Source: Planctomycetota bacterium | GTDB taxonomy: Bacteria > Planctomycetota > Phycisphaerae > FEN-1346 > JAACEH01 | Assembly: GCA_016935955.1 (NCBI GenBank) | Contig: JAFGPY010000068.1 | Coordinates: 1 to 13,098 of the forward strand | Length of the DNA: 13,098 nt | Direction of reading: 5' to 3' | Shown here: one piece after another, positions 6,504 to 13,034 of the stretch | How the letters are laid out: each line of letters opens with the position of its first letter | Position numbering within the stretch: position 1 is the first letter of the stretch | Translations under genes and position numbers: made by a program | The notes under the pieces: generated by a model | Told to the model about the DNA's origin: nothing | The model's input: only the letters and a program-made list of their open reading frames with translations | The model's database searches: none

Positions 6504-8747
6504 TCATCGCCGCGCGGTGCGTGTGGTGGAGATGATGCCCATCTGCAGGGCGGCCTCGGCGATTTGTTTGGCCACGGGACCGGCCACGGCGCCGCCCGAT
6601 CCGCCGTATTCGAAGACCACACTGAAGGCGATCTGCGGGTCCTCGGCCGGAGCGAAGCCGACGAACCAGGCGTGCGTCCGGTGGTCGCCGAGTTCGGCCG
6701 TGCCGCTCTTGCCGGCAATCCGCACCTGATCGCTTCTGACGGTTCTGTAGCCCGTCCCGCCTTCCTCGTTGACCACACCGGTCAGGGCATCACGAACGGT
6801 TGCCATGTAACCAGGATTCAGGTCCATGTTGATGCGGACAAGCGGCCGGTTGGCCGGTCGCGGCGAATCGATCACATGCACCTCGGTCATCTTGCCGTCG
6901 CTGGCGATCAGGGCCATGAACCGCGCCGCCTGAAGGGGCGTGACCATCAGTTCGCCCTGGCCGATGGCCAGACTCTTGGGATCCCCGCTACGAGGAAGGT
7001 TGCCAGCCTTCTCGCCTGGAATCAGCAGACCGCTGCGCGTGCCGAAGCCGAACCGCCGTCCCCACTCATACAGCTTGTCGGGTCCGAGGGCCAGACCGGT
7101 ATAGTAGAAGTAGATGTTGCACGACTTGACCAGGGCGCGGTGCAGGCTGATGGGGCCGTGCGTGCCCAGGCAGGTGAACTTGTTCGACACGCCGGGAAAG
7201 AACTGCTTGTTGCAGACGAAGACGGTCGAGGGGGTGATCTTGTGCTCGTGCAAGGCGGCCGTCGCGGTGACGGCTTTGAAGATAGAGCCCTGGGCCAGTT
7301 GGGCACCTATGGCACGGTGCACCAGCGGCCTGCCCTCGGCCTCCATCAGTTTGGGGAATTTTTCCGAGAACGTGTTGGGGTCAAACCTCGGCGTCGAGAC
7401 CAAGGCCAACAGGGCGCCCGTGCGGATGTCGATGACCACGACGGCCCCGCAAATGGCCCCAGAGGTCTCCGGCGGCGTGGGCGGCCGCGACATGAAGACC
7501 TCGATCTCGCTCTGCAGCGGCACGTCGAGCGTCAGGCGCACGTCCTGTCCGGGCTGCGGCGGTTCGTGCTGCAGCAACTGGTCGGCCTTGTCGCGTTGCT
7601 CGATGCCGCGGCGGCCGCGAAGGAACCGTTCCATTCCACCCTCAACGCCGGTCACGCCGACCATGTCGTGCAGGCGGTAAACGCGCTGTAGATCCTCAGC
7701 GGCGGCCTCGCCATCGCCATCGGGACTAGTGCCCAGGTGTTGCTCATCCACCTCGCCGACACGACCGACCACATGGGCGGCACAGTCGTTGTACGGATAG
7801 ATGCGTTTGGCGTGCTGTTCGAAGACCAGCCAGTCGTACTCGGTCTGCATGGCGGCGACAACGGCCTTGGTCAGTTCGTTGACGTCGACGAGCATCGGAT
7901 GGGCGACGCCGCGCGGGCCCGCGACCTCCTCTTTGATCTGCATGGATCGTCCGTGGCGGCGTTCGATGGCGCCTTTGAGGGCTCGAACGATGTGCAACGT
8001 GCGAATGCGCTGCTCGTCGAGCACGGCCACGTCGATGCCGGTCTTCTCGGCCAGCAGAGGCCAGAACTCGGACAGTTTCTTCTCGATCGTAGGCGTGAGT
8101 TCCGGGCTGTCGTCGATGAGATCGGTGAAGCGTTCGGGATCGATCCACAAGTCCTGCATGAGCCGCGACGCCTCGGCCTCGGACAGCCGCGGCGCAGCCG
8201 GCGTCGAGAACCGCAGACGGTCGATCGCCGCGCCGACGTCGTCGGTCTGAAGGCGGCCCTGCTCCGTCAGCAAGCGACGCAACTCGGGGTCGCGCGAAGC
8301 CAACAACTCGGACCACTGGCGGCTGGCGGCCACGCGGCGGCAGAGCGAACTGTCCTGCCCCGCCGCGGCCACCAGCAGGTCGAACCGGCGGCCGTCGGAA
8401 AGGGTCTTCTGCAGGATTTCGTCCCAGAAGCGCGTCGAGACCAGGGCCAGGGACAGCTCGGACCGGGCGGCGATGCGACGGATCAGGGCCGGGTCCTCCA
8501 CGGCCAGGAACGGGTAGTAGACACAGACGTCGAAGCTGGCAGTATCCTCGGCGAGTACCAGACCGTTGCGGTCGCGGATGGCCCCGCGGCGAGTCTCCAG
8601 CAGCGCGGGGCGACGGATGAGATTGACTCGGGCCTCGCGGTCGTATCCCGAGGCGCCCACGACCTGAAGCTGGCCGAGGCGCACAGCCAGAATGACCATG
8701 GCCAGGGCCACAACGACGAGAAAGAGTTTCAGGCGGCTCCAATACAT
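6504..8747 (-). CDS. mrdA: Penicillin-binding protein 2-type peptidoglycan transpeptidase
   Basis: This 747-residue class B PBP cross-links peptidoglycan during cell elongation and is anchored by an N-terminal membrane helix (about 7-24). RRGAIRDRNG at 53-62 is the conserved N-terminal motif, and YPYNDCAAHVVGRVG near 317-331 is the PBP2 pedestal motif. The transpeptidase domain has all three catalytic motifs: Ser488-Ile-Phe-Lys491 (SxxK, nucleophile Ser488), Ser542-Cys-Asn544 (SxN) and Lys680-Ser-Gly-Thr (KTG-type). The distance from the N-terminal motif to SxxK is about 150 residues longer than in E. coli PBP2, because of a charged helical insertion roughly at 85-290. PBP2 rather than FtsI is favoured by its place behind mreBCD. 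No good ribosome site precedes ATG 8747, but the membrane anchor begins there. It is the last gene of the cluster and lies 125 bp behind mreD. RodA is not seen. Confidence 0.93.
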   Translation of the reverse strand: MYWSRLKLFLVVVALAMVILAVRLGQLQVVGASGYDREARVNLIRRPALLETRRGAIRDRNGLVLAEDTASFDVCVYYPFLAVEDPALIRRIAARSELSLALVSTRFWDEILQKTLSDGRRFDLLVAAAGQDSSLCRRVAASRQWSELLASRDPELRRLLTEQGRLQTDDVGAAIDRLRFSTPAAPRLSEAEASRLMQDLWIDPERFTDLIDDSPELTPTIEKKLSEFWPLLAEKTGIDVAVLDEQRIRTLHIVRALKGAIERRHGRSMQIKEEVAGPRGVAHPMLVDVNELTKAVVAAMQTEYDWLVFEQHAKRIYPYNDCAAHVVGRVGEVDEQHLGTSPDGDGEAAAEDLQRVYRLHDMVGVTGVEGGMERFLRGRRGIEQRDKADQLLQHEPPQPGQDVRLTLDVPLQSEIEVFMSRPPTPPETSGAICGAVVVIDIRTGALLALVSTPRFDPNTFSEKFPKLMEAEGRPLVHRAIGAQLAQGSIFKAVTATAALHEHKITPSTVFVCNKQFFPGVSNKFTCLGTHGPISLHRALVKSCNIYFYYTGLALGPDKLYEWGRRFGFGTRSGLLIPGEKAGNLPRSGDPKSLAIGQGELMVTPLQAARFMALIASDGKMTEVHVIDSPRPANRPLVRINMDLNPGYMATVRDALTGVVNEEGGTGYRTVRSDQVRIAGKSGTAELGDHRTHAWFVGFAPAEDPQIAFSVVFEYGGSGGAVAGPVAKQIAEAALQMGIISTTRTARR

Positions 8748-8872: not shown

Positions 8873-9403
8873 TCAGGACCGGCTAGCGAGGCGTCCGCGG
8901 TGGGTCGCCAGACGGGCCATCACCCACAGGAAGGGCCAGGCCAGTATGGCAGTATAGACGGCATCGCCAAGCGTCTGGTCGACAAGCAGCCCCAGTCCGA
9001 TCGTCGGCCCCAGCGAGAGCCAGGAGGCCAGCAGGAGTTGCAGCGGCCGCATCAGCAGCACCATGGCGGCGGCCAGGACGATCTGGGTGATTGGCCGCTC
9101 GTAGATCATGACCGACCGGGCATGGCAAAGGGCATAGCAGACAAGGGCCAACAAGAGCGCGGTGATGCCCAGCCGCTGGCTCGGGATGACACCCATCAGG
9201 TCTTCGACCATGCCGATCATCCAGCCGACGACGAAGGCCTCGTTCGGCCGCGCAACCAGGGCCACCAGCAAGGCCATGAGGATGAACAGGTCGGGTCGGA
9301 CGTCGGCCTCGAACGGCCGCAAGGCCAGCAGCTTAGGCACGAAAAACGTGGTTTGGATAACGGTGCAGGCCCAGCCCAGAATGATGAAGACGAACCAGCG
9401 CAT
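8873..9403 (-). CDS. mreD: Rod shape-determining protein MreD
   Basis: This 176-residue integral membrane protein is almost entirely hydrophobic, with five or six predicted helices (about 3-20, 37-52, 57-75, 80-97, 105-125 and 140-162). The segment FVVGWMIGMVEDLMG fits the conserved Gly/Asp-containing region of MreD, and the length matches the family (about 160-180). MreD sits in the inner membrane with MreC and PBP2 and helps to control lateral wall synthesis. Sequence conservation in this family is low, so the call rests on hydrophobicity, length, the GxxxD-type region and the fixed order mreB-mreC-mreD-PBP2. ATG 9403 is the natural start, with a weak GAGCGGA about 7 bases upstream. It lies 45 bp behind mreC. 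Confidence 0.88.
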   Translation of the reverse strand: MRWFVFIILGWACTVIQTTFFVPKLLALRPFEADVRPDLFILMALLVALVARPNEAFVVGWMIGMVEDLMGVIPSQRLGITALLLALVCYALCHARSVMIYERPITQIVLAAAMVLLMRPLQLLLASWLSLGPTIGLGLLVDQTLGDAVYTAILAWPFLWVMARLATHRGRLASRS

Positions 9404-9448: not shown

Positions 9449-10381
9449 CTACTTTTTGAACTCGCGGCTGCGCGGCGTCAGGACATAAACTTCGTCGAGC
9501 CTGCCGAAGTCGATCCGCGGACGGACGATGATGCGATGAGTCAGGCCGCCCTTCCCCGGCTCCACGGACGTCACCTCGCCGAGAATCATCGAGTCGGCGA
9601 TGCCGATGCCGGCCGAGTAGGTCACCACGTAGTCGCCCGGGGCGACGTCGACGTTGCTGCGAACAAGCTCCATGACCATGGACGTCTTATCGTCGCTGCC
9701 GGTCAGGCGCCCGACCTCCGGCGCGGCGACCCACTTGCGACTACCGACGTCCCAGTGGACGATTCGCGCGGACAGCCGGCAATCGGGGCTGGTCACGAGC
9801 CGCACCTCACTGAAGTCCGTGTCGGCGTGAGCGATGATGCCGACAACCCCTTTGCCCGTGACGACGGCCTGTCCGTCGCGTACGCCGGACGTGCGGCCGC
9901 GGGAAATGTAGGGGTAGAGAACGAACTGCCCCTCGCAGACGCCCTGCTTGCTGCCGGAGTCGATGCGGTATCCGCCACCCTGGTCCACGTAGCTGGGCGA
10001 GAGAATGTGGGCCGGAATAACGTCCAGCGGATACTCGGGCAGTTGGCCGAGAATCTGCTGCATGATCCGCTGCGATCGTTCCAGTTCGTTGATGCGGGCG
10101 GCCTGCTGGGCGACAATCGCCCGGGCCTCGTGGAGTTGAAGTCTGGTGAATTCGAGCTGCTTCTCTTCGTCGCTGATCAGCCGAATGTCGGGGGCCTGCT
10201 CGCGGATGACCAGCATGGCCTTCTGCGACAACTTCTGTCCGGGCTTGAAGACGTGCGCGGCCAGCCGCCGGCACTGAGCAGCAGCAGCCCCGTTGCGGTC
10301 CAGCAGGGCCAGCATCAAAGCAGTGACCACCAGGAAGGCGATCACGAGCCGACTCCATGTGCTGGACTGGGTGCGAGGCAT
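9449..10381 (-). CDS. mreC: Rod shape-determining protein MreC
   Basis: This 310-residue protein has the MreC layout. A short cytoplasmic N-terminus is followed by one membrane helix (about 11-28), a periplasmic coiled coil (about 66-112) and a two-part beta-barrel domain (about 120-302). In the beta domain GYRIDSGSKQGVCEGQFVL and GVVGIIAHADTDFSEVRLVTSP match the recurring MreC pattern of a glycine-rich turn followed by a strand and the VRLxT element. MreC links the MreB filament and MreD to PBP2 and switches the synthase on. ATG 10381 has AGCAGG 7 bases upstream. It is preceded by a 156-bp gap after mreB and followed at 45 bp by mreD. Confidence 0.93.
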   Translation of the reverse strand: MPRTQSSTWSRLVIAFLVVTALMLALLDRNGAAAAQCRRLAAHVFKPGQKLSQKAMLVIREQAPDIRLISDEEKQLEFTRLQLHEARAIVAQQAARINELERSQRIMQQILGQLPEYPLDVIPAHILSPSYVDQGGGYRIDSGSKQGVCEGQFVLYPYISRGRTSGVRDGQAVVTGKGVVGIIAHADTDFSEVRLVTSPDCRLSARIVHWDVGSRKWVAAPEVGRLTGSDDKTSMVMELVRSNVDVAPGDYVVTYSAGIGIADSMILGEVTSVEPGKGGLTHRIIVRPRIDFGRLDEVYVLTPRSREFKK

Positions 10382-10537: not shown

Positions 10538-11587
10538 TCACATATCGTCGCCGCTGTCGATCAGTCCGCCCAACAAGTCGATGTTCTCCAGGTAGACGGC
10601 CGTGCCACGAGCCACACACGTCAGCGGATCGTCCGTCACGCCGACCTTCAGACCCGTGGCCTGGGCCAGTACGGTGTCCAACCCCCGCAGCAGGCTGCCG
10701 CCGCCGGCCATAACGATGCCGTTGTGTACCAGGTCGGCCGACAGTTCCGGTTCGCTGCGCTCGAGCGTCCGCTTGACGGCCTCGACAATGGCCTGCACCG
10801 GCTCGCTCAGAGCCTCGCGAATCTCCTCGCTGGTGACCACGGCCTTCCGCGGCAGACCTGCAATCAGATCGCGGCCCGAGACCTCCATGGTCAGTTCCTG
10901 CTCCAGCGGATAGGCCGAACCGATCTCGATCTTGATCCGCTCGGACGTCAACTCGCCAATCAGCAGGCTGTAGGTCTTCTTCATGTGGCTGATAATGGCC
11001 TCGTCCATGTCGTCGCCGGCTACGCGGACGCTTTCACTGCAGGCGATGTCGCCGAGGCTGATGACCGCCACCTCGGTGGTGCCGCCGCCGATGTCCACGA
11101 TCATGCTGCCGACGGGCTCCTCGACGGGCAACCCGGCCCCAATGGCCGCAGCCATGGGTTCGCGCACCAGGTAGACCTTGCGGGCGCCCGCGCGGCGGGC
11201 CGATGACCGGACGGCCCGGGTCTCCACGGCGGTGATGCCCGAGGGAATGGCAATGACCACACGCGGGCGGAACAGACCGCCACGGCGATGGACCTTGCGG
11301 ATGAAGTAGCTGAGCATGGCCTCGGTGATGTCGAAGTCGGCGATGACGCCGTCCTTGAGCGGACGGATGGCCACGATCGAACCGGGCGTCTTGCCGATCA
11401 TCTTCTTGGCCACGTCGCCGACGGCGTTGCCGTTGAACAGCGGCTTGTTGGTGTCCTTGTAGACGGCCACGACGGAAGGCTCGCACAGGACGATGCCCTG
11501 GCCTCGAACGCTGACCAATGTGGTGGCCGTGCCGAGGTCGATGCCCATGTCCGTCGAGAACATGCCCAGGATACGATCGACGATCAT
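10538..11587 (-). CDS. mreB: Rod shape-determining protein MreB (bacterial actin)
   Basis: This 349-residue actin-like ATPase polymerises under the membrane and orients lateral wall synthesis. It is readily recognised along its length. Phosphate 1 loop GIDLGTATT lies at 15-23, phosphate 2 DIGGGTTEV at 165-173, and the adenosine-side motif MAGGGSLLRGLD at 293-304. MreB landmarks VREPMAAAIGAGLPV, ERIKIEIGSAYP and DPLTCVARG are all intact. The N-terminal MIVDRILGMFSTD corresponds to the membrane-binding N-terminus of Gram-negative MreB. The length is normal and no key residue is missing. ATG 11587 has GGAG with an 8-base spacing. A 312-bp structured gap with a possible promoter lies upstream, so mreB may have its own transcript in addition to read-through from the two upstream genes. 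Confidence 0.98.
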   Translation of the reverse strand: MIVDRILGMFSTDMGIDLGTATTLVSVRGQGIVLCEPSVVAVYKDTNKPLFNGNAVGDVAKKMIGKTPGSIVAIRPLKDGVIADFDITEAMLSYFIRKVHRRGGLFRPRVVIAIPSGITAVETRAVRSSARRAGARKVYLVREPMAAAIGAGLPVEEPVGSMIVDIGGGTTEVAVISLGDIACSESVRVAGDDMDEAIISHMKKTYSLLIGELTSERIKIEIGSAYPLEQELTMEVSGRDLIAGLPRKAVVTSEEIREALSEPVQAIVEAVKRTLERSEPELSADLVHNGIVMAGGGSLLRGLDTVLAQATGLKVGVTDDPLTCVARGTAVYLENIDLLGGLIDSGDDM

Positions 11588-11899
11588 ACGGGTAGCTCCG
11601 ATAGCTTCGATGCGACCGTGTTCAGGAAGACCGCATAGAGTTGATCACCGGCGGCGTCCGCGGGAAACCGCAGTGCGGACACGCCGTATAAGCAATATGG
11701 GACGATCCAACCGGTCGTTAGATCGTCCCTTAGCGAGTTAACCCCCGTACGAGATTTCCACTCAGCCCCGAGCCCGGAGCTTCGCGTCGCCGGACCGTCT
11801 TACGACCGTCTGCCTCCTGCCCTCTCCGGCACGTCCTGCTGCATCGACACGGCCCGGCGATCCTGCGTTTCCCCCGTTCGCCGGGCACTTCTGACACGC
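11588..11899 (-). other. Structured 312-bp non-coding region upstream of mreB
   Basis: No convincing gene lies here, but the stretch is rich in perfect dyads. GCCCGGCGA (11852-11860) pairs with TCGCCGGGC (11878-11886), starting 13 bases past the stop of the upstream gene. GCCGGA (11789-11794) pairs with TCCGGC (11825-11830). A 13-bp stem with one G-U pair lies at 11699-11711 with 11717-11729. None is followed by a strong minus-strand T-tract. The region could be a long structured leader of mreB, a processed non-coding RNA, or a weak terminator followed by a new promoter. I recognise no known riboswitch family with confidence. Confidence 0.5.
11686..11729 (-). promoter_or_regulatory. Possible mreB promoter overlapped by a long dyad
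   Basis: On the minus strand TGC-TTATAC (11694-11686) resembles an extended -10 element, about 92 bp before the mreB start. No good -35 box lies at the right distance, which extended -10 promoters can tolerate. The place of the -35 is filled by the inverted repeat GGGACGATC...GATCGTCCC (outer arms 11729-11721 and 11707-11699; loop GACCG), which continues inward to 13 bp. The dyad could be an operator or a terminator stem for upstream transcripts. This is inference. Confidence 0.35.
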
Positions 11900-12187
11900 C
11901 TACTGACCAGGCAGCTCACCGCCGGCCTGATTCTGAGACGTGTTGGTCGTGTTCAGACTGACTGTCTCCAGGGCGTTCTCGGCTTCCTTGATACCCCGGT
12001 CCAAGTCGCTCATCGCCTTGTCGTGGTCTTTGAGCGTCTTCTCGTACTTCTCGCCGAACGGAACCGACCACCCGTAACGAGCGTCGGCCTGCAAGGCCAC
12101 GAAGACCACGGCGACCAGCAGAAAGACCAAGGCAATGATCGTCAGCAGCGTGTAAATACTGTTCGACGGCTGGGCCGCAACCTGCAT
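11900..12187 (-). CDS. Small membrane/coiled-coil protein ahead of mreB, unknown function
   Basis: This 95-residue protein is not recognised. A short polar N-terminus leads into one strong membrane helix (about 11-33, IYTLLTIIALVFLLVAVVFV). A charged helical stretch follows (about 44-78, with EKYEKTLKDHDKAMSDLDRG) that could form a coiled coil, then a polar Asn/Gln/Thr-rich tail. ATG 12187 is chosen because AGGAGG at 12203-12198, formed by the last two Arg codons of the upstream gene, lies 10 bases before it. A longer in-frame start at 12220 would overlap the upstream gene by 26 bases and has no such site. The arrangement means the two genes are probably translationally coupled and their products made together. 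Their position before mreBCD suggests a role in wall growth or envelope structure, but this is inference. Confidence 0.75.
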   Translation of the reverse strand: MQVAAQPSNSIYTLLTIIALVFLLVAVVFVALQADARYGWSVPFGEKYEKTLKDHDKAMSDLDRGIKEAENALETVSLNTTNTSQNQAGGELPGQ

Positions 12188-12194
12188 CCCGGCA

Positions 12195-13034
12195 CTACCT
12201 CCTGACGGTATACGTGACATTGTCGTCCCTCCGCACGTCGCTCTGCTTGTACTCCAGCCGCCCGACCGCCGTGTTCTCATCGACCTTCATGATGACCAGG
12301 TCGGCCAGGTAATCGCTCCCGCGGGAGACGATGAACTTCATGTTCTCGACCACCTGATCGCTCGAACCGAGGCTGATTTCGGCCACGTTGGTGCCGTTGT
12401 CAACGTCGCGAACAACGCCGTGCAGGTCCACCGTCGGCAGGGCCGGAACGGCCTTGGGCAGATCGACCTTGGCGTGCTGCTTCAGGTAGGTGTTCTCCTT
12501 GCCCATCTCGGAGACCTGAACTTCCAGACCGCGTATGCGGGCACGCAGATCAATCACGGCCTGCTTGAGATCCTGGTTCTGGCTCTTCAGATCGCTGTTG
12601 ACCTGACGCAGAACCGTCGCGTCGGAGACCTGCGTCTTGTAGGACTCCTCAAGCTGGTCCCTGTCGGCCTTCAGCTTGGCGTAGTTGGAGTCCAGACCCT
12701 GGACGGCCGTACGCAGCTCGTTCAGTTCCTTCTGCTGTTGGGCCTTGTCACGATCAAGCGCGAGATTGGTGTTTCGCAGCTGTTCGATGAGCCCCATCTT
12801 GTTTTCAATTTCCAGAGAGTACGTCTTGGCCAGGTCGTTGCGCTTCGTGTTGGCGTTCAGCAGCGCATCCTGGAAGGCCTTCCAAGCCTCCTCGGCTTTG
12901 GCACGGCCCGCACTGGCCTGCTCATACCGCAGGTTCAACTTTTCGCTGCTCTTGACGTACGCCACAACAAGCACGCACAGGGCAATCGCGGCGACGACGT
13001 TCAGTACCGTAAAGATCTTACCGAGAGTACTCAA
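12195..13034 (-). CDS. Membrane-anchored coiled-coil protein with C-terminal beta domain, MreC-like layout
   Basis: This 279-residue protein is not a known family I can name. One membrane helix lies at about 6-27, followed by a long charged coiled coil (about 31-188) full of Lys, Glu, Gln and Leu. A compact beta-rich domain follows (about 200-279) with VDLHGVVRDVDNGTNVAEIS and MKFIVSRGSDYLADLVI. That pattern (strand, IslGssD turn, v-r-g-y-a-l-v-v) resembles small beta-barrel domains in MreC and in FlgT-type C-termini. The start is taken as TTG 13034: AGGGAGG (13049-13043) lies 8 bases before it and the membrane helix begins 5 residues later. An upstream ATG at 13091 would add 19 residues without a ribosome site. 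The stop is 7 bases before the ATG of the coupled 95-residue gene. Orientation and proximity to mreB suggest an envelope role. Confidence 0.75.
   Translation of the reverse strand: MSTLGKIFTVLNVVAAIALCVLVVAYVKSSEKLNLRYEQASAGRAKAEEAWKAFQDALLNANTKRNDLAKTYSLEIENKMGLIEQLRNTNLALDRDKAQQQKELNELRTAVQGLDSNYAKLKADRDQLEESYKTQVSDATVLRQVNSDLKSQNQDLKQAVIDLRARIRGLEVQVSEMGKENTYLKQHAKVDLPKAVPALPTVDLHGVVRDVDNGTNVAEISLGSSDQVVENMKFIVSRGSDYLADLVIMKVDENTAVGRLEYKQSDVRRDDNVTYTVRR
12198..12203 (-). promoter_or_regulatory. AGGAGG ribosome site inside the upstream gene's last codons
   Basis: The perfect AGGAGG is also the final Arg-Arg codon pair of the 279-residue protein and stands directly before its TAG stop. It is 10 bases from ATG 12187. 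This decides the start of the 95-residue gene and points to coupled translation. Confidence 0.8.

Follow-up and report, generated by a model that had tools for sequence, protein, structure and literature searches.

FtsL, FtsB and DivIC are bitopic coiled-coil proteins of wall complexes, and the C-terminal domain of FlgT (PF16538), from the Vibrio flagellar H/T ring, is a small beta barrel. MreC (PF04085) has one N-terminal membrane helix, a coiled coil and two C-terminal six-stranded barrels (PMC8804602; this and the other papers cited here are drawn on in excerpt), and RodZ occupies the slot of a membrane-spanning link at MreB, a slot that is apparently vacant in Planctomycetota. Here we describe two consecutive genes, gene 1 and gene 2, upstream of mreB in 13,098 nucleotides of contig JAFGPY010000068.1 from a Planctomycetota bacterium (the window, in which all coordinates are counted). 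We propose, with a probability of about one half, that their products are an MreC-like planctomycetal envelope scaffold pair that is kept together, and whose core job is the spacing or organisation of the envelope. Most likely the pair owes its link with the rod operon to ancestry, and it is apparently able to work without the rod machinery; a partnership with MreB or the rod complex is something that we infer.

The AlphaFold2 model of gene 1 (mean predicted local distance difference test score, pLDDT, 87.5; predicted template modelling score, pTM, 0.32) consists of a single helix over residues 3-187, followed by a six-stranded C-terminal domain at residues 204-276. The coiled coil within this helix is real, because the heptad signal extends across the family: over residues 33-180 of 106 members, hydrophobicity peaks at a period of 3.5 residues with a power of 0.87, against 0.16 in shuffled sequences. 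A first-pass annotation of the window had described gene 1 as a protein with one membrane helix, a coiled coil and a C-terminal beta-rich domain, and both the model and the periodicity agree with it. The distance between membrane and barrel is nearly fixed, with 213 ± 4.9 residues (range 201-227) from the centre of the membrane helix to an invariant barrel glycine in the 106 proteins, whereas the equivalent distance is 133 ± 49 residues (64-290) in 73 MreC proteins from the window and the loci (three others were skipped). The family is also conserved at both ends. Position 6 of the N-terminus, M-S-T-L-G-K, is K in 101 of the 106 members, and among the 22 proteins of the protein search, gene 1 itself included, S-T-L-G-K-I is invariant and the C-terminal domain strongly conserved.

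Gene 1 thus shares with MreC its three parts and their order, a place as operon neighbour of mreB, and a weak similarity of the barrel in profile and in fold. The likeness drawn by the first-pass annotation holds to this extent, but gene 1 has one barrel where MreC has two, its stalk is longer and almost constant in length, and it lies upstream of mreB, whereas the real MreC lies downstream. The Pfam MreC model (cut-off 28) does not match gene 1, and gives 14.5 and 13.7 bits in two of ten isolated C-terminal domains. Since MreC is also present, gene 1 is no stand-in for it; the separate, bona fide MreC that the annotation had pointed out scores well above the Pfam cut-off (Table 1). Fold and profile comparisons liken the barrel to the C-terminal domain of FlgT, the N-terminal barrel of F1/V-ATPase and the barrel of MreC. 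Gene 1 differs from FlgT in having none of its other domains in the Pfam scan, in its coiled coil and membrane anchor, and in its gene neighbours, and it is not a rotary ATPase subunit with a nucleotide-binding domain. Compared with FtsL, FtsB and DivIC, its stalk is far longer and it carries the barrel in addition. At E ≤ 1 the Pfam scan of gene 1 returned 30 families, mostly coiled coil among the best 25 of the 30; DivIC/FtsB (PF04977) is one of them, at 19.3 bits against a cut-off of 28.9, as a generic coiled-coil match.

The pair is real and widespread in the phylum. In the class of the closest relative (L001, from a Phycisphaerae bacterium), gene 1 profiles match 364 of 397 genomes at E ≤ 0.001, and across the phylum they match 281 of 294 Planctomycetota genomes at E ≤ 1e-5. 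Of the latter matches, 23 are weaker than 1e-9 and are probably chance coiled coils, because in five opened genomes (L154, L155, L156, L161, L162) mreB stands without gene 1 within 13 kb; weak matches in the class survey may be chance as well. A protein search with gene 1 gave 21 homologues plus itself, and the organism names in the protein searches were Planctomycetota, Planctomycetes and Phycisphaerae, with one metagenome-assembled genome labelled Anaerolineaceae and many matches unnamed. Neither gene exceeds the cut-off of any Pfam or NCBIfam family in the profile searches that the first-pass annotation had recommended, and a confident hit on an unrelated family such as flagellar or secretion components, which it had named as speaking against its proposal, did not turn up. 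The titles and abstract openings listed by full-text literature searches, and the excerpts drawn on here, contain no description of the pair, subscription papers being largely outside the survey. The loci compared below are 66 from the class (6 plus 60 chosen from at least about 150 listed places in the class search) and 39 chosen from the phylum match list, including L132 and L133, whose genomes were sampled by the class search as well. One alignment (A3) held 51 sequences picked for spread, and another (A4) the window's gene 1 with 71 proteins, P0033, P0039 and P0080-P0083 being left out.

Several labels and matches met along the way were set aside. Some homologues bear the labels PF24161 and PF28231, which a rescan of five of them failed to recover, the best 60 of 236 PDB sequence matches of the A4 profile look like coiled-coil chance matches, and the name 'chromosome segregation ATPase', like the SMC, myosin and tropomyosin matches in Pfam and NCBIfam, reflects generic coiled coil. 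Duplicated forms of gene 1 also occur: L122 has two full-length copies in tandem, and L123, L124, L126 and L128-L131 have a second, shorter relative just upstream of gene 1, which in the three aligned cases (L123, L126, L129) has the membrane helix and coiled coil and no barrel.

Gene 2 accompanies gene 1 closely. A gene 2 profile, built from class sequences and refined over three iterations, matched 87 of 9,908 small open reading frames (ORFs) in the 105 loci, and 82 of the 87 lie directly after gene 1, that is, in 63 of the 66 class loci and 19 of the 39 phylum loci. Behind gene 1 in 18 of the remaining 20 phylum loci (all but L114 and L146) there is an ORF of 51-122 amino acids with a single helix, as judged by eye. 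The single membrane helix that the first-pass annotation had seen in the window's gene 2 was found again, following a conserved motif (Table 1). In L042 the position of gene 2 is taken by a protein of 141 amino acids whose C-terminal half resembles the barrel pattern of gene 1 (G-x-V, I-x-I-G, G-D); it appears from its sequence to carry its own copy of a similar barrel, as if the domain had been shared or copied.

The two genes are probably also coupled. The likely start of gene 2 is ATG 12220, inside gene 1, as judged from a junction alignment of the window with L001-L006 and L037, in which all eight sequences have ATGTCA at this place, preceded by GGAGGG in the window, L001 and L002 and by GAAGG in the other five. 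From this start the overlap with gene 1 is 26 nucleotides, and 23-26 in the seven relatives. The first-pass annotation had instead started gene 2 at an inner ATG (12187), with the AGGAGG formed by the final two gene 1 codons as its ribosome site ten bases upstream. That motif exists, and the coupling it was taken to indicate is preserved as the overlap, but neither element is kept intact in the genome relatives: none of the seven relatives has an ATG at the inner position, and the counterpart of AGGAGG is CGGAGG in L001, with nothing similar in the other six. Weighing against the corrected start, P0024-P0027, four metagenomic homologues of gene 2, all carry the inner methionine; three of them are recorded with the outer start and one (P0026) with the inner, and both starts may be used in the closest clade of the window. 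Close spacing of the two genes is general and overlap is confined to some clades: distant genomes show it too, gene 2's first start codon preceding the end of the last gene 1 codon by 17 bases in L163 and by 26 in L184, whereas in many class loci gene 2 starts beyond gene 1, often no more than about 100 bases away. The start codon of gene 1 itself, which has GGAGG eight bases 5' of it in the window, is TTG at 56 class loci and GTG at the other 10, and ATG in all 39 phylum loci, including L132 and L133, although their genomes belong to the same class as the TTG and GTG loci; it looks like a weak start codon fixed in most of one clade. Start codons assigned to mreB by a nearest-codon rule were unreliable and are set aside.

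Both ORFs are read from the same strand as mreB, mreC, mreD and PBP2, which lie downstream and all exceed their Pfam cut-offs, as the first-pass annotation had stated. Of the 66 class loci, 56 have mreB as the next co-oriented gene downstream of the pair's gene 1; the other ten comprise two contig ends, six without mreB in the stretch read and two with mreB elsewhere in it. The same arrangement is found in 27 of the 39 phylum loci, no mreB being seen in the stretch read for the other 12. MreB thus follows gene 1 in 83 of the 105 loci, and MreC follows mreB in 75. Among the matches listed (at least 148 places for gene 1 and at least 150 for MreB, which favours strong matches), 89 genomes have both genes, and in 76 of them a co-oriented mreB lies 154-1689 bp downstream. 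The remaining 13 have the two genes on different contigs, and in some of these cases a gene is only a few hundred bases from where its contig starts. The same order within 1.7 kb in 76 genomes of several megabases is far from chance. The expectation that the pair would stay beside mreB across Planctomycetota is therefore largely borne out, with some loci lying away from it.

Upstream, lnt (apolipoprotein N-acyltransferase) precedes gene 1 directly or with one gene in between in four of five scanned loci (L049, L078, L111, L184), and a PDZ protein takes its place in L163. A HEAT-repeat gene stands between lnt and gene 1 in L049 (8656-9648) and L078 (6500-7510). Loci L154-L162 have mreB and mreC without gene 1 or gene 2, and seven of the nine also have PBP2; in the five checked by Pfam (L154, L155, L156, L159, L162), lnt lies directly before mreB. 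These loci are the apparent empty site of the pair. The order lnt-gene 1-gene 2-mreB-mreC-mreD-PBP2, set against lnt-mreB-mreC, suggests that the two genes came or went together, as a single block, between lnt and mreB.

The pair appears to persist where the rod machinery is not found. Genome G555, with a contig (C1) of 4.81 Mb out of about 4.8 Mb, keeps gene 1 and gene 2 (at L163), and in it we found only DnaK-like matches to MreB (68.9 bits), no MreC match and no PF00905 transpeptidase. In genome G590, lnt, gene 1 and gene 2 are consecutive (L184) with no mreB seen there, and no MreB at E 1e-40, no MreC and no transpeptidase were found in it. Both genomes have a PF00953 glycosyltransferase, a family that also includes non-peptidoglycan enzymes. 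G305 and G061 are likewise without a true MreB match, and G400 was dropped as an MreB-less candidate because its mreB is cut by the contig end right after gene 1. Losses of this type have been reported: MreB is described as missing in Isosphaeraceae (PMC5352709), and in many Planctomycetales peptidoglycan genes and MreB were lost in correlation (PMC8567305), a kind to which G555 and G590 may belong. The survival of the pair in these two genomes argues for a function independent of MreB, MreC and the transpeptidase, and hence for a core job that is probably spacing or organising the envelope and not switching on PBP2.

Table 1. Features of the pair and its neighbours in the window (positions in the 13,098-nucleotide stretch)
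Feature	Position	Strand	Description and basis
Gene 1	12195..13034	-	279-amino-acid single-pass membrane protein, coiled coil and C-terminal beta barrel
Gene 1 start and stop	TTG 13034; stop 12197-12195	-	sequence
Gene 1 membrane helix	12951..13016	-	residues about 7-28; sequence and family alignment
Gene 1 coiled coil	12474..12944	-	residues about 31-187; AlphaFold2 model and periodicity 3.5
Gene 1 C-terminal six-stranded beta-barrel domain	12207..12425	-	residues 204-276; AlphaFold2 and fold/profile comparison
Gene 2	11900..12220	-	106-amino-acid single-pass protein; likely start ATG 12220, stop 11902-11900
Gene 2 membrane helix	12092..12157	-	directly after conserved motif N-x-[IV]-Y-T-x-L
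GGAGGG, likely ribosome-binding site of gene 2	12227..12232	-	within gene 1 coding sequence; junction alignment
AGGAGG in last two gene 1 codons	12198..12203	-	junction alignment
Hairpin between gene 2 and mreB	11699..11729	-	13-bp stem; -24.3 kcal/mol, z -5.5
mreB	10538..11587	-	Pfam MreB_Mbl 466 bits
mreC	9449..10381	-	Pfam MreC 97 bits (cut-off 28)
mreD	8873..9403	-	Pfam MreD 28.1 bits (cut-off 24)
PBP2	6504..8747	-	Pfam Transpeptidase 208 bits, PBP_dimer 66 bits

The hairpin listed in Table 1 lies about 110 bases before mreB and has no directly following U-run; a terminator and a leader element are both possible. The same stem is found in L001 and not in L002, and an Rfam scan of the window gave nothing at gathering thresholds.

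In the mechanism that we propose, gene 1 would be anchored in the inner membrane, with a cytoplasmic part of about six residues and its coiled coil in the periplasm, where it would form a parallel dimeric rod that displays the small barrel at its tip. A coiled coil rises 0.15 nm per residue, so that about 155 residues would give a rod of about 23 nm, the dimeric state and the length being assumed. Gene 2, translated from the same message by way of the overlap, would be a small transmembrane partner that links the base of the rod to the cytoplasmic side, and the pair would scaffold the envelope beside MreB, MreC, MreD and PBP2, with gene 1 in an MreC-like role, though it has only one barrel and its stalk is longer and fixed in length. 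As about 23 nm is within the range of the Gram-negative periplasm, the pair might even be an ancestral, periplasm-spanning envelope ruler in an lnt-mreB operon, with a function independent of MreB and of peptidoglycan transpeptidation, an extension of the scaffold reading that we regard as tentative.

Several observations weigh against the scaffold reading or against the independence that it claims for the pair. The topology of gene 1 rests on a weak charge bias around the membrane helix (+1.0 before, +0.3 after) and on analogy with MreC and FlgT, which are periplasmic. MreC is absent from the best 50 rows of the VIA-align fold list for the barrel, and the weak hhalign similarity between gene 1 and an MreC profile drops to 54% with the barrel alone; that profile excluded gene 1 ORFs and required a position after mreB, as an unfiltered iteration had absorbed six gene 1 sequences. 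Eleven of the 12 phylum-set genomes without mreB near gene 1 encode a full MreB at another site (best E 2.5e-114 or lower), and of the 13 gene 1 genomes without MreB at E 1e-40 that were searched for a transpeptidase, G400 among them, 11 have one, leaving only G555 and G590 without one; the genomes lacking an MreB match come with no completeness figures. Conversely, in all ten genomes opened because of a weak or missing gene 1 match (L154-L162 and L167), mreC follows mreB and the stretch read contains no gene 1, and the nine empty-site loci among them imply that MreB can do without the pair.

The first-pass annotation had offered the pair either as partners of the elongasome or as an envelope scaffold, and the evidence divides between these two. 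If gene 1 and gene 2 were dedicated elongasome subunits, the cytoplasmic tail of gene 2 would bind MreB as a substitute for RodZ, and the barrel of gene 1 would bind MreC or PBP2. This fits the frequent adjacency to mreB and the MreC-like layout and barrel, and it fits the absence of RodZ_C (PF13464) from all 59 phylum genomes searched, where 6 of 14 controls were positive; in the excerpt of PMC5147048, RodZ is likewise reported as not found in Planctomycetes, and MreC as patchy. Neither gene has a RodZ_C or helix-turn-helix match. Retention of the pair in G555 and G590, separation of gene 1 from mreB in other genomes and mreB-mreC loci devoid of the pair speak against such dedication, and we hold this alternative to be rather unlikely. 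The pair might instead belong with lnt, in the delivery or tethering of outer-membrane lipoproteins, its proximity to mreB being an accident of an old operon. The position of lnt ahead of gene 1, the row at L184 and the direct lnt-mreB contact at the pair-less loci all suit this idea, but few loci were scanned, one of these has the PDZ protein upstream instead, and the HEAT-repeat gene intervenes in two others, so that we consider it improbable.

Two further alternatives detach the pair from the rod operon. A name given to several homologues, that of a chromosome segregation ATPase, would make gene 1 a cytoplasmic coiled-coil cytoskeletal element, and its coiled coil does match SMC, intermediate filament and crescentin models; these matches are generic and below cut-offs, no ATPase domain was found, and an N-terminal membrane helix with a barrel known elsewhere from MreC and FlgT, both periplasmic (though also from cytoplasmic ATPases), does not suit such an element, which we judge very improbable. 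Least probable of all is a periplasmic or flagellar-ring type of part, in which a FlgT_C-like barrel would serve in a ring or a secretion apparatus with no bearing on cell shape. In the PDB fold list the LPHT ring and FlgT do come first, and FlgT_C matches four of the ten domains tested, at best with 24.2 bits in L123 and 22.2 in L119, the window's own domain having no match; all ten, however, stay below the cut-off of 27, the FlgT and F1/V-ATPase rows are tied among the best 50 and the barrel also resembles MreC, so that the fold is not specific, and the identified neighbours are mainly mre genes, PBP2 and lnt.

The scaffold reading bears on a phylum whose cell biology departs from the usual pattern. 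Planctomycetota are reported to be without FtsZ, and Phycisphaerae to divide by a binary-fission-like mechanism without it; the excerpt of PMC6952346 asks about another main driver protein of division in the classes with binary fission. Planctopirus limnophila, for which deletion mutants and transposon data are available, tolerates the loss of mreB (PMC6952346, PMC12283558), and its mreB (Plim_2620) and mreC (Plim_2621) are both given as non-essential (PMC12283558). A 2016 review reports proteomes of the Planctomycetes-Verrucomicrobia-Chlamydiae group as being without MreD (PMC5147048, in the part drawn on here); this fails for the window, where MreD exceeds its cut-off, and is contradicted by the naming of mreB, mreC and mreD in one unit in P. 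limnophila (PMC6952346).

How Planctomycetota build their envelope and divide is an open question, and the pair described here is a concrete, widespread and unnamed candidate for a part in it, by virtue of its position in the mre locus, its MreC-like plan and its persistence in two genomes in which no MreB was found. If the tentative ruler idea were true, the ruler would be a phylum-specific part for shaping the envelope and for division without FtsZ, retained where the rod machinery has been lost.
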